Positions 25,075-29,632 of a stretch of 35,004 bases of DNA are shown here, piece after piece. The translations under genes and the position numbers were made by a program. The notes below the pieces were generated by a model. It saw only the letters and a list, made by a program, of their open reading frames with translations, was not told the origin of the DNA and made no database searches. The DNA comes from Candidatus Iainarchaeum sp. (GTDB lineage Archaea > Micrarchaeota > Micrarchaeia > Anstonellales > Bilamarchaeaceae): NCBI GenBank assembly GCA_028713495.1, contig JAQTOF010000005.1, positions 1-35,004 on the forward strand, in the 5' to 3' direction. Each line of letters starts with the position of its first letter. Within the stretch, counting starts at the first letter, position 1.

Positions 25075-25730
25075 AGGCCGATTCGTTTCCTAATCAGGTA
25101 GATTCCGATATCTATACCATGGAATACAGTGAGTTTTGTCTCCCCTTTCCTGGTCCCATAGCTTATCGGGACCTCACAAAGCATCAGCTTCTTCTTGGCG
25201 CACTCGGTATAGAAATTAGCCTCAAGAGAGAAATGTCTCGCGTCTATATCCATCTTCTTGTAGGCGTCTTTCCTGAAAGCCCAGAAGCCTGAGCACACAT
25301 CGCTCACTGGCTTCCAGTAGAGCACATTCGCTATGGTCGTCAGTCCCATATTCCCGAGCCGGTTCGTGGTTCTCATGGCTCCTTTCTCTATATTCCCTTT
25401 GAACCGGCTTCCGACCACCACATCATAGTTTTCCAGGGCCTTCAGCAGCTTAGGTATCTCCTCTGGCGCATAACTCATATCCGAGTCCAGCAGCACTGCT
25501 GCATCGCTGTCTATCTCGGAAAAGGCCTTCTTTATGGCCAGGCCCTTGCCCTTCACATCCAGCGTTATGAGTTTTGCTCCTGCCTTCTCGGCTATCTCAA
25601 CCGTGCCATCAGTACTGCCGCTGTCCACTACGCAGATTTCATAAGAAGAATCGACTTTCCTCACACGTGCTATCATGTCAGCTATGGATTCGGCCTCATT
25701 GAGCGTCGGAAGCAGCACGCACACTTTCAT
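25071..25730 (-). CDS. Family 2 glycosyltransferase (DPM1-like)
   Basis: 219 residues. The GT-A fold is shown by the start VLPTLNEAESI, the nucleotide region CVVDSGSTDGT, the metal-binding D-S-D in VLLDSDMSYAPEEIPKL, and the acceptor region VSDVCSGFWAFRK. The closest well-known relatives are dolichyl-phosphate mannose or glucose synthases. No C-terminal membrane domain is fused. The start overlaps the stop of the GT-C-like membrane protein (ATGA). Dol-P-sugar synthase feeding a GT-C enzyme is a familiar pairing, so this protein may supply the lipid-linked sugar used by its neighbour. Confidence 0.9.
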   Translation of the reverse strand: MKVCVLLPTLNEAESIADMIARVRKVDSSYEICVVDSGSTDGTVEIAEKAGAKLITLDVKGKGLAIKKAFSEIDSDAAVLLDSDMSYAPEEIPKLLKALENYDVVVGSRFKGNIEKGAMRTTNRLGNMGLTTIANVLYWKPVSDVCSGFWAFRKDAYKKMDIDARHFSLEANFYTECAKKKLMLCEVPISYGTRKGETKLTVFHGIDIGIYLIRKRIGL

Positions 25731-27547
25731 CCTGCCACCTTGAATACGATGAACGCGTTGTTGCTCAGCTGCTGTTGCGGCTGGAACCTGCTGTCGATAA
25801 GAAGGCCGTTCAGTTTACCATTCACCTCATCCGGGGTGAAGCTCAACAGGCATGTTTGGTCTATCACTGTGTATTCATATCCATATTTTTTCAGGAAGTC
25901 GTAGTTGCCCTGTACGCTATCGTTTATCGACTGCATCTTGTAGTCTCTCACCTCAGTAACCCAGCCATATCCGAACAGCCCCATTCCATTGATCAGGTCC
26001 TCGTTATCACAGAATCCGAATACCTTGGTGTTCGCAGGCAAGGCCTTGAGACCGGCATAACCAGCCACCTGTTCATTTGAAACGAAGCTTGTCCCAGGAG
26101 GCCATGCCGAGGTCTCAACAACATATTTCGCTGATGCTGCCGTCATTATAAGCCCCAGCACGATCACACCTGCCACGACGCCGCCCCAGTTCTTCCCTGC
26201 TTTGTCAATGAGCCACGCCGTGCCCATGGCAGCCAGCACAGCAACAGGTATAGCCAGGAAAACCCAGAACCTGTGCGGCATCATCTTCAACGGCATGGCA
26301 TTGCCTTCCACGCCTATCATGCAGAAAACGAACCAGACAATCAGCGCAAGGCAAAGCCAGCGCTTATCGCCTTTCAATCCCTTCACTGCAATCGCAAGAC
26401 CCAAAACCATCAGGATCGTCACAACAATCCCCCATCCTGTGGGCTGGTCCATCTTCGAGGCGAATGGCGCATCAAGGAAGTCGTTTATCCCATAAACCAC
26501 ACCGCCGCTGGTATCTGGTGCTGCTTCGGTCACAAAACCGAGATTCAGTCCCATCTGCCCGAGCACACCTTCTGCGCCATACATCGCGAACATCGGAATC
26601 CAGAACAGCAACAAGGCGACCAAAAGCGCAAGCAGCGGAACCATAAATGCGTCCAACAAAGCAGTCGCCTTTCCAGCCGCACCCAATATGGCCGGTAGCC
26701 TTAACACAGCGACGTAAAGAAGGGTCATGACGAATATTATGCCTGCAACGGATGGCTGCGTCATAAAAACAGCTCCTAGCGTGACGACCCCCATGGCCAT
26801 CAGCGCTCGTTTCCCATCTCCCCCCTGTAGATATCTATCAAGGAAATAGAACGCAGGGAAAACAAGGAGCATCGCCAATGTCTGCGCCCATATGAAATGG
26901 CTCATGAATGACGGCAGGCAAGCGAGTATCGCAGTGGCCCAGAGCGCAGTTCTTCCATCAAACCGTTTCTTTGTCCAGCAGTAGAATAGTGGTATGACCA
27001 AACTAACAAGCAACGCATTGAAGAATTTCAGTGTGAACTGCAGCGCGCTCCCATCTACCTGGAAGATCGTGCCAAGCAGCACATCGAAGAACGGTGGATA
27101 CGGCGCCAGATAGTGTATCAGGGTCGTATCCGGCTGGATATATGTGCCGAATATGGAGACATATCGCACTGCAGTAGCATGGTTCCATGGGTCGTCATCC
27201 TCCAGCCATGGATAGTTGAACGCGCCAGTGGCATAGACGTAAAGGTGTATTAAGAAAAGCAGAAGTACAATGATCCAATCCCATTTTACTTCAGGCATCT
27301 TAAGCGAGACCATCTCTTTCCGCACGGCTAGTCCTATCAGTACGAGCGTTATAACTCCATAGACGTACCATATCGCGAGGTTAAAGAATCCAAGCACAGT
27401 GCTCAGCAAAACAAAAGCAGCCAGCCCGCTGGCGATATAGAGAAAGAAAGCCGCAATGCTATCCTCCTCCTTGATGCCTAGCAGTCTCCATAAGGCGAAT
27501 CCAAGGCCAAGACTTATGAGCGCGAAATAGATGAGCTGAAGTATCAT
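25727..27547 (-). CDS. Multi-pass GT-C-like glycosyltransferase
   Basis: 606 residues with roughly a dozen membrane helices and a small C-terminal extracytoplasmic domain of about 110 residues. The first external loop carries YPWLEDDDPWNHATAVRYV, the acidic loop expected in GT-C enzymes that use polyprenyl-phosphate sugars. I see no WWDYG-type motif, so it is not an obvious AglB/STT3 oligosaccharyltransferase. The frame is open to 27625, but ATG 27547 with GGTGGGGG just upstream starts at the first helix (MILQLIYFALISLGLGFAL). The 3' end overlaps the GT2 gene. The sugar and acceptor are unknown. Confidence 0.8.
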   Translation of the reverse strand: MILQLIYFALISLGLGFALWRLLGIKEEDSIAAFFLYIASGLAAFVLLSTVLGFFNLAIWYVYGVITLVLIGLAVRKEMVSLKMPEVKWDWIIVLLLFLIHLYVYATGAFNYPWLEDDDPWNHATAVRYVSIFGTYIQPDTTLIHYLAPYPPFFDVLLGTIFQVDGSALQFTLKFFNALLVSLVIPLFYCWTKKRFDGRTALWATAILACLPSFMSHFIWAQTLAMLLVFPAFYFLDRYLQGGDGKRALMAMGVVTLGAVFMTQPSVAGIIFVMTLLYVAVLRLPAILGAAGKATALLDAFMVPLLALLVALLLFWIPMFAMYGAEGVLGQMGLNLGFVTEAAPDTSGGVVYGINDFLDAPFASKMDQPTGWGIVVTILMVLGLAIAVKGLKGDKRWLCLALIVWFVFCMIGVEGNAMPLKMMPHRFWVFLAIPVAVLAAMGTAWLIDKAGKNWGGVVAGVIVLGLIMTAASAKYVVETSAWPPGTSFVSNEQVAGYAGLKALPANTKVFGFCDNEDLINGMGLFGYGWVTEVRDYKMQSINDSVQGNYDFLKKYGYEYTVIDQTCLLSFTPDEVNGKLNGLLIDSRFQPQQQLSNNAFIVFKVAG

Positions 27548-27587
27548 GTGCCCCCACCCAATTAATCTCCTGTGGTTTTTTAATGCC

Positions 27588-27628
27588 AATTCCACCGGCC
27601 TGTGACCGGTGGTCCCGAGCGCCACGTT
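27588..27628 (+). repeat. 41-bp repeat, copy 1, left of the methyltransferase gene
   Basis: Begins AATTCCACC and ends TCCCGAGCGCCACGTT. It matches copy 2 (28548-28588) at 36 of 41 positions. This copy contains CCACCGG-cctgtga-CCGGTGG, a perfect seven-base hairpin. It lies about 50 bases before the methyltransferase ATG and 41 bases from the GT-C start on the other strand. Confidence 0.75.
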
Positions 27629-27679
27629 GAGTATTATCTTTATATTCGCAGCGTGGTAATATCATTCTGGGTATTATCG

Positions 27680-28507
27680 ATGGATGATCAACTTGAAAAA
27701 AGGATCAAAGACGAGAACCGTATTTTACATGATTTCAGTGCAGACAGCTATGATAACTGGCCACCATATGTGACAAAGCAAAATAATCTTATGTTTTATA
27801 CCGACATTAAACTGATTAGTAAGTTGTTAGGCAAAGAGACCTTAACTGCATTGGAATGTGGGTGTGGGTCTGGTAAACTAACGCTAAATCTCGTGAACAA
27901 CGGTTTTCATGTCGATGCAGTCGATATCTCTTGTAAGATGGTTGATATTAATAGAGAAAAAATGAACCAATTCAATCTTCAAAAAACTCCGATTAACTTT
28001 CATGTTTCTGATGTTGACGAATTCCTAATCAAACCAGGTCATCAGTATGATTTGATCTGCTTCTCGGCAGTATTACACCACATCGGCGACTACCTCAAAA
28101 CTTTGAAATCCGCATGTACGCGCGTAAGTCGAGGTGGTTTTATCTATATCGGGGGAGAGCCCCAGCTACAAAAGGGCAAGACCTGGGTGCACAAATCTAT
28201 TGATTTTCTTTCTGACAAATCAATCATCGGCTATAAGTTCCTGAAGAATCCGGGAAACTCTATCCGCTTCGTTAAGCATGCTGTATTCAAACCAAAAACA
28301 GGTTCAAAAATCAATGTCACTCTGGCCGAATTCCATGCCGTAGATGGGGTTGATGACAAGCAGATCATCCAGCTTCTGAAGGACGAGGGTTTCAAGATTA
28401 TATGTCATGAACCGTTTTTACACCATCCATTTGAAATTTTTGAAATTACAAATCGGCTATATCGTGACGGCCCTAAAAATTTCAAGATAATCGCCCAGAA
28501 AAATTGA
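27680..28507 (+). CDS. Class I SAM-dependent methyltransferase
   Basis: 275 residues from MDDQLEKRIKDENR. Motif I is ALECGCGSGKLTLNLVNNGF, followed by VDAVDISCKMVDI with the SAM-ribose acid, and DLICFSAVLHHIGDY at the motif IV position. These are marks of small-molecule methyltransferases of the UbiE/Methyltransf_11 type; a sugar or lipid acceptor is plausible here. The start follows a TATA-like CTTTATATTC (27638-27647). The gene is much richer in A/T than its neighbours: 27961-28020 has 19 G/C of 60. It is bracketed by a 41-bp direct repeat. Both traits suggest recent acquisition. Confidence 0.88.
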   Translation: MDDQLEKRIKDENRILHDFSADSYDNWPPYVTKQNNLMFYTDIKLISKLLGKETLTALECGCGSGKLTLNLVNNGFHVDAVDISCKMVDINREKMNQFNLQKTPINFHVSDVDEFLIKPGHQYDLICFSAVLHHIGDYLKTLKSACTRVSRGGFIYIGGEPQLQKGKTWVHKSIDFLSDKSIIGYKFLKNPGNSIRFVKHAVFKPKTGSKINVTLAEFHAVDGVDDKQIIQLLKDEGFKIICHEPFLHHPFEIFEITNRLYRDGPKNFKIIAQKN

Positions 28508-28547
28508 CTCCTGCCCGATTAAAGCTTTCAAGTTAAGTTTAACGCCT

Positions 28548-28588
28548 AATTCCACCTGTCTGTGGTCGGTTGTCCCGAGCGCCACGTT
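28548..28588 (+). repeat. 41-bp repeat, copy 2, right of the methyltransferase gene
   Basis: Same boundaries as copy 1, with five substitutions, which weaken the internal hairpin. The last 16 bases (TCCCGAGCGCCACGTT) are identical in both copies. It lies 42 bases before the TTG start of the next gene. ATATTTAATA follows directly. Confidence 0.75.
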
Positions 28589-28630
28589 ACATATTTAATA
28601 TTCCTTGTGCATTCACATACGGTGTCTTGA

Positions 28631-29632
28631 TTGGAAAAGCGCTTTCAGCTCCTACTCAATCTTTTGCTATCAATAGCCCTCTTCGCGGTCATATTCTACC
28701 TGGTCGGCTTCGACAAGATAGCTACAGTCCTGGTCAGCGCCAAGCCAGAGTTCTTTGTTTTTGCCCTCATGGTCTATTTCGTCCTCAATCTGGTCATGGC
28801 CTATAGGGTGAAGATAGTTCTGGAGAGCATCGGAGATACACTCAGCACGTTCGAGGTGTTCAAATCAAGCCTTGCAGGCATGTTGGCGTCTGATTTCACC
28901 CCTGCCCGCATAGGCTACTTCTTCACTGCATTCTCGCTCTCTGCCAGGCACAAGATCCCGTTCGAGAAAACCCTTCTCTCAATATTCGGTCCGCAGCTCT
29001 TTGATTTCATGATAAAGGTGACATCTGCGGCCATACTCCTCTACCTCATAATCTCCATGGCTGGCGGCGACATCCTACTGAACGCCATCGTTCTCGCGGT
29101 TTTCGCAGGCGCCATAATCTCAGCCGCCCTCCTGGTCTTCTATCCGCCGCTCCTCAAACTCCTAGCGCCATTCGAATCGCTCCCACTGGTTCCGCATATC
29201 TTCAATTTCATCAGGAGGATGCACCTTCATTCGCACAAGGTCCTTGCTGTCAAGTGGAAGATCGCAGCTATCACAATCGTATGCTGGCTCATCAAGGGTC
29301 TGGAATGGCTCTTCCTCTCAAAGGCGGTCGGAATACAGCTTTCAGGAGACCTCATCAGCGACCTGCTATTCATGATGGTCTTCCAAGCAGCCCTTACCAT
29401 AATCCAGTTCTTGCCCATACCTACTTTGGCTGGTGCAGGAGCAAGCGAAGCAGGATTTGCAGCCGCTCTTCTTCCATTTGGAGTGCCATTGGAGACTGCT
29501 GTAACCTTTGGTTTCCTCACCAGGATAGTCATGATAGCCGTGGATTCGCTATCCCTTCCGGTGCTTCTTGACTATCTTCATCATCACAGCCTCGAGAGTT
29601 CCTTGGATAAGATATTCAAGCTGGAGCACTGA
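28631..29632 (+). CDS. UPF0104/LPG-synthase-TM-like membrane protein (possible glycolipid flippase)
   Basis: 333 residues with about eight membrane helices. Typical family stretches are FFVFALMVYFVLNLVMAYRV, the conserved loop LAGMLASDFTPARIGYFFTA and, near the end, IPTLAGAGASEAGFAAALLP. In archaea, relatives such as AglD lie in glycan clusters; flipping or transfer of a lipid-linked sugar is proposed but not settled. The start must be TTG 28631 or later, since an in-frame TGA lies at 28628-28630. GGTGT six bases upstream supports the TTG. It follows repeat copy 2. Confidence 0.85.
   Translation: MEKRFQLLLNLLLSIALFAVIFYLVGFDKIATVLVSAKPEFFVFALMVYFVLNLVMAYRVKIVLESIGDTLSTFEVFKSSLAGMLASDFTPARIGYFFTAFSLSARHKIPFEKTLLSIFGPQLFDFMIKVTSAAILLYLIISMAGGDILLNAIVLAVFAGAIISAALLVFYPPLLKLLAPFESLPLVPHIFNFIRRMHLHSHKVLAVKWKIAAITIVCWLIKGLEWLFLSKAVGIQLSGDLISDLLFMMVFQAALTIIQFLPIPTLAGAGASEAGFAAALLPFGVPLETAVTFGFLTRIVMIAVDSLSLPVLLDYLHHHSLESSLDKIFKLEH

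Follow-up and report, generated by a model that had tools for sequence, protein, structure and literature searches.

The window analyzed here is a stretch of 35,004 nucleotides (contig C5) of G000, a metagenome-assembled genome (MAG) of Candidatus Iainarchaeum sp. with 1.02 Mb in 78 contigs and 90% completeness. In it, a class I SAM-dependent methyltransferase gene lies between two divergently transcribed genes of a glycan cluster and is bracketed by two direct copies of a short repeat. We compared it with an order-level sample of 84 genomes (G000 and 83 others) and a phylum-level sample of 301 Micrarchaeota genomes (G000 and 300 others), among which G004 is a congener of G000 and G013 a closer relative. 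Only species representatives underlie the E-values and tallies, and transposases and repeat copies may be hidden by MAG incompleteness. The features of the locus are:

25727..27547, minus strand: left-flanking glycosyltransferase-type membrane protein, transcribed away from the insert, without a Pfam match (open reading frame; colinear with G004)
27579..27632, plus strand: repeat copy 1, unit of ~54 bp with a 41-bp core at 27588-27628 (alignment to copy 2 and to the G013 and G022 copies)
27592..27612, plus strand: hairpin of copy 1, CCACCGG, 7-base loop, CCGGTGG (sequence and fold; stem compensation across the family)
27639..27645, plus strand: TTTATAT, putative TATA box for the methyltransferase gene (read from the sequence)
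27680..28507, plus strand: class I SAM-dependent methyltransferase, 275 aa, foreign by composition (Pfam Methyltransf_23, E = 1.9e-15)
28539..28592, plus strand: repeat copy 2, unit of ~54 bp with a 41-bp core at 28548-28588, hairpin decayed (alignment and fold)
28594..28602, plus strand: TTTAATATT, putative TATA box for the flippase-like gene, where homology with G013 begins (blastn match starting at 28594; alignment)
28631..29632, plus strand: right-flanking flippase-like/LPG synthase TM-domain protein (PF03706, E = 3e-31; TIGR00374)

The first-pass annotation had reported that the two cores, spaced 960 bases apart, match at 36 of 41 bases. This holds: the pair is the top 41-base self-match between 24 and 32 kb, where five composition shuffles reached at most 28/41. 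The right end that it gave as an identical stretch of 16 bases is indeed identical, but 17 bases long (GTCCCGAGCGCCACGTT), and has no further occurrence in the window even at three mismatches. Counting the arms common to copies in other species, the repeat unit extends to ~54 bp. Copy 1 folds as had been suggested, with a 7-bp stem, and the hairpin of copy 2 is damaged; the start codons, previously placed some 40-50 bases downstream, are 51 and 42 bases past the ends of copies 1 and 2, respectively. Both arms are present in each window copy and likewise in the lone G013 and G022 copies, so the pair represents two whole short elements rather than two ends of one; an element with copies 1 and 2 as its left and right ends and the methyltransferase gene as its core was rejected for this reason.

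The methyltransferase gene and the corresponding loci in relatives

The methyltransferase gene has a GC content of 0.394 and a GC3 of 0.425, compared to 0.48-0.57 and 0.50-0.75 in 17 neighboring genes, in agreement with the A/T-richness noted earlier. The codon usage comparison proposed at that time places its score 4.0 SD below the mean of the same 17 genes. At E ≤ 1e-15, no relative of the encoded protein was found in the 83 other genomes of the order or the 300 others of the phylum. Viral and plasmid origins were both rejected, as no viral contig has the repeat pattern or encodes a methyltransferase relative, and plasmids gave just three weak tblastn matches. The best reading of the gene is that it is foreign and was probably acquired horizontally.

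In G004, both flanking genes are present and divergent, with a 62-bp gap between them that contains neither the methyltransferase gene nor the repeat. The proteins are 46-53% identical to those of the window and the promoter bases are not alignable; by gene order, the G004 locus is an empty site. In G013, the flippase-like gene is 84% identical, and homology begins at 28594, 6 bases beyond the core of copy 2 (blastn and alignment), with no repeat in the promoter of this ortholog. The G013 alignment reveals no obvious target duplication at the right junction. On the left side there is no empty site aligned at base level: G013 has no counterpart of the left gene and G004 has diverged too far, so that alignment does not locate this edge.

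Missing from the corresponding place in G013 is everything from 25075 to 28593, i.e., two glycosyltransferase-type genes (both genes to the left of copy 1), the methyltransferase gene, and both repeats. It is the G004 comparison only that narrows the insert to the methyltransferase gene and the repeats, and the glycosyltransferase-type genes, one of which is present in G004, would have been gained or lost separately from the methyltransferase gene. A search for a tRNA-derived att site found no tRNA in the window.

Distribution and architecture of the repeat family

A genome-wide search for the 41-mer, as the first-pass annotation had advised, found two copies only in G000 rather than copies upstream of many genes (other matches to the tail need three mismatches), and a widespread genomic repeat was rejected. 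Across the 84 order-level genomes, one full-length copy each is present in G013 and G022 at unrelated loci, and these were also the only convincing matches when 84,980 species genomes were scanned; four bacterial pattern matches (L019, L022, L023, L024) lack the tail and were taken as chance. In G022, the copy is flanked by the stop of a PemK/MazF-like gene and by the start of a primase large subunit gene (L010:1501-1540, G022:C46), and the G013 copy lies between genes encoding proteins of 181 and 1257 aa, neither with a Pfam match, at a point where synteny between G013 and G000 breaks. No Rfam family matches the repeat, whether at the gathering cutoff or at a relaxed one, and a limited literature search found no description of the family.

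A looser hairpin pattern with three mismatches allowed gave 15 sites in 10 of the 301 Micrarchaeota genomes (six of them in G045) and none with the reversed control; more partial matches are present in G014 and G045. Complete elements of ~150 bp with two domains were identified in G004, G024, G026, G045, and G051, and related ones in G014. The left domain reads ATTCCAC, hairpin, and, farther on, GTGGAAT, and the right domain starts with TGTCAA, continues to CCGAGCGAAGCGAGCA-GCC and the hairpin, and closes with TTGACA, with the hairpin CCACYGGTC-TRT-GACCRGTGG common to both domains. In a set of 19 hairpins, 91.8% of the stem cells are paired, and two-sided compensatory cells number 11 vs. 3.9 in shuffles, a supportive rather than conclusive result, as the structure was inferred from the same sequences and related copies were counted separately.

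The family of two-domain elements is spread over several Micrarchaeota families, with loci in G045 (C77, C81, C36, C86, C34, and C19; L076, L078-L082) and G004 (C29; L069), and further ones in G014 (C2, C42, C45, C56, C73, and C75), G024 (C70), G026 (C117), and G051 (C11).

Single-hairpin forms are also found in G045 (C19 and C34), in which the left arm is joined to the right end ...GGTGGGCGCATGCTTATTGAC. The window copies have the left arm and the hairpin of the left domain in common with the complete elements, and their tail weakly resembles the right end of the latter (shuffle p = 0.0025 for the G013 copy and 0.05-0.2 for the others). We therefore think that the window repeat is more probably a shortened, "terminal-only" member of a dispersed family of two-domain palindromes, and we read the window copies as a probable older single-hairpin lineage of it.

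The right ends of the complete elements (TTGAC) are the same letters that follow a TnpB remnant in G045, and the family presumably derives from IS200/IS605-type transposons. At this G045 locus (L126:1-700, G045:C6), a C-terminal TnpB remnant is followed by a hairpin, TTATTGAC, and then directly a larger palindromic element ending in the same letters. Y1 transposases gave 14 matches in G045 and none in G000, G004, G022, and G026. As direct parents, Y1 elements were rejected, since the examined flanks of 20 Y1 loci do not contain the family hairpin, and the Y1 element of G014 ends in GTGGGGTCATA, unlike the family elements.

Likeness to known mobile elements

The palindrome-associated transposable elements (PATEs) of Haloquadratum walsbyi are non-coding and have near-terminal palindromes like those of IS605-type transposons; repeat-mediated deletion of their core leaves a 52-bp "terminal-only" form that is possibly still mobile (PMC3119063). 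The Micrarchaeota elements are likewise short and non-coding, with mutually similar near-terminal palindromes, single-palindrome forms beside complete ones, and, at the ends of the complete elements, a short conserved oligonucleotide (TTGAC in this family). Both the window unit (~54 bp) and the complete elements (~150 bp) are too short for a transposase, the 15 sites in 10 genomes lie at different loci, and the elements of G004, G024, G026, G045, and G051 have similar near-terminal palindromes without terminal inverted repeats. Each window copy has a single, partly decayed palindrome, as expected for terminal-only forms, and in anatomy and size they appear to be a close match to these. As for similarity to IS605-type ends, TTATTGAC behind the TnpB remnant points toward it, and the Y1 loci without the family hairpin and the differing G014 Y1 end point away. 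The window differs from PATEs in sequence and phylum, in that two shortened copies with decayed hairpins flank a foreign gene, and in that kinship with IS200/IS605 ends is not demonstrated.

Bracketing of cargo by two transposase-free element copies is also known from TIME-COMPs, composites bounded by MITEs; for directly oriented MITESen1 cases the authors suggest that a circle joins a resident copy (PMC13367494). Those elements are bacterial, of Tn3 type, and 244-256 bp long, and they have inverted repeats and target duplications of 5 bp; these traits are not seen here.

Candidate routes of gene gain

We consider it probable that the locus is a foreign gene placed between two divergent promoters and bounded by two shortened PATE-like repeats. 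The methyltransferase gene would have been inserted between the two divergently transcribed genes of the glycan cluster, with direct, single-hairpin repeats of ~54 bp at its borders. Either DNA carrying the gene and one repeat copy may have recombined at a resident copy, or the repeat pair and the gene may have moved as one composite unit; both routes would leave the order repeat-gene-repeat between two promoters. Recombination at a resident repeat or composite movement is the most likely course, the two being not separable here, and the repeats presumably took part in the insertion. As copy 1 matches copy 2 at 32 of 37 positions and the G013 copy at 33 of 37, the window copies are no more alike than copy 1 and the G013 copy. 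A recent duplication on insertion would thus seem a poorer fit than a resident and an incoming copy. It is doubtful, in our estimate, that two shortened, transposase-free palindromic elements form a composite that captures and moves an unrelated gene in this DPANN archaeon, with a Y1 transposase acting in trans and TTTA-rich gaps between promoters as targets.

The first-pass annotation had proposed a cassette inserted by way of a recombination site. The insertion part agrees with the foreign composition, the absence of relatives from 300 genomes, the uninterrupted gene pair in G004, and the start of G013 homology just past copy 2; the recombination-site part fared less well, as the analysis found no dedicated recombination system, and an empty site with one repeat copy, which it had advised looking for in other strains, was not seen among the relatives compared (the G004 site has no repeat). 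Gene gain in DPANN archaea with genomes of ~1 Mb is poorly known. In a family of short palindromic repeats common to several Micrarchaeota, one pair bounding a glycan-cluster gene that was acquired after the separation from close relatives provides a concrete route that can be tested.

Alternatively, the repeats may have inserted separately around a methyltransferase gene that had arrived by ordinary recombination, homologous or illegitimate, and the bracket would be a coincidence. Copies 1 and 2 are not each other's closest relatives, and the region seems generally plastic, judging from the genes missing in G013 and an extra ATPase gene there; even so, the sole two copies in a 1-Mb genome are only 960 bases apart, in the same orientation, and on either side of a foreign gene, and we regard such a coincidence as fairly unlikely.

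Another alternative, raised by the first-pass annotation, is a shared regulatory element, in which the 41-mer, just ahead of the TATA boxes, would serve as an operator or as a site for an activator and the methyltransferase and flippase-like genes would be co-controlled. Each of the four full copies is indeed followed within a few bases by a TATA-like sequence and has the orientation of the downstream gene, and their outer parts, AATTCCAC and GTCCCGAGCGCCA, are kept between species while the hairpin decays. However, there are just two copies in G000 and one each in G013 and G022, before unrelated genes, the promoter of the orthologous flippase-like gene in G013 is without it, and the family includes large palindromic members at many loci in G045 and G014. 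The distribution of the copies thus does not bear out this proposal, which is disfavored and which we judge to be quite unlikely. TATA-adjacent positions may simply be where insertions survive in compact archaeal genomes.

Least probable by far is an integron-like arrangement, with the repeats as attC-type sites and the methyltransferase gene as a cassette. The layout of direct, hairpin-forming, recombination-like sites around a gene is shared with integron cassettes, integrons are reported from archaeal MAGs of nine phyla (PMC9668308, the main text of which does not mention Micrarchaeota), and the outer arms partly pair (TAACG/CGTTA in copy 2). Nevertheless, the two core boxes of attC, RYYYAAC (R'') and GTTRRRY (R'), do not occur together in either copy: copy 1 has GTTGAGT on the right but TTTAATG, without AAC, on the left, and copy 2 has TTTAAC on the left but ends in GTTACAT rather than GTTRRRY. 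Further, the primary sequence is kept between species, the hairpin is off-center, there is no array, and no integrase was found among the window genes scanned. The repeats do not fit a MITE of a DDE-type insertion sequence, as the 54-bp unit ends without a terminal inverted repeat (the outer arms have weak complementarity of 5-6 bp only) and no target duplication is evident.

The glycan cluster as a whole looks like an insertion hot spot. In G013, an AAA_14/DUF4143 ATPase gene lies between the flippase-like and epimerase genes (L065:2010-3500, G013:C68), where the window has a 30-bp gap.
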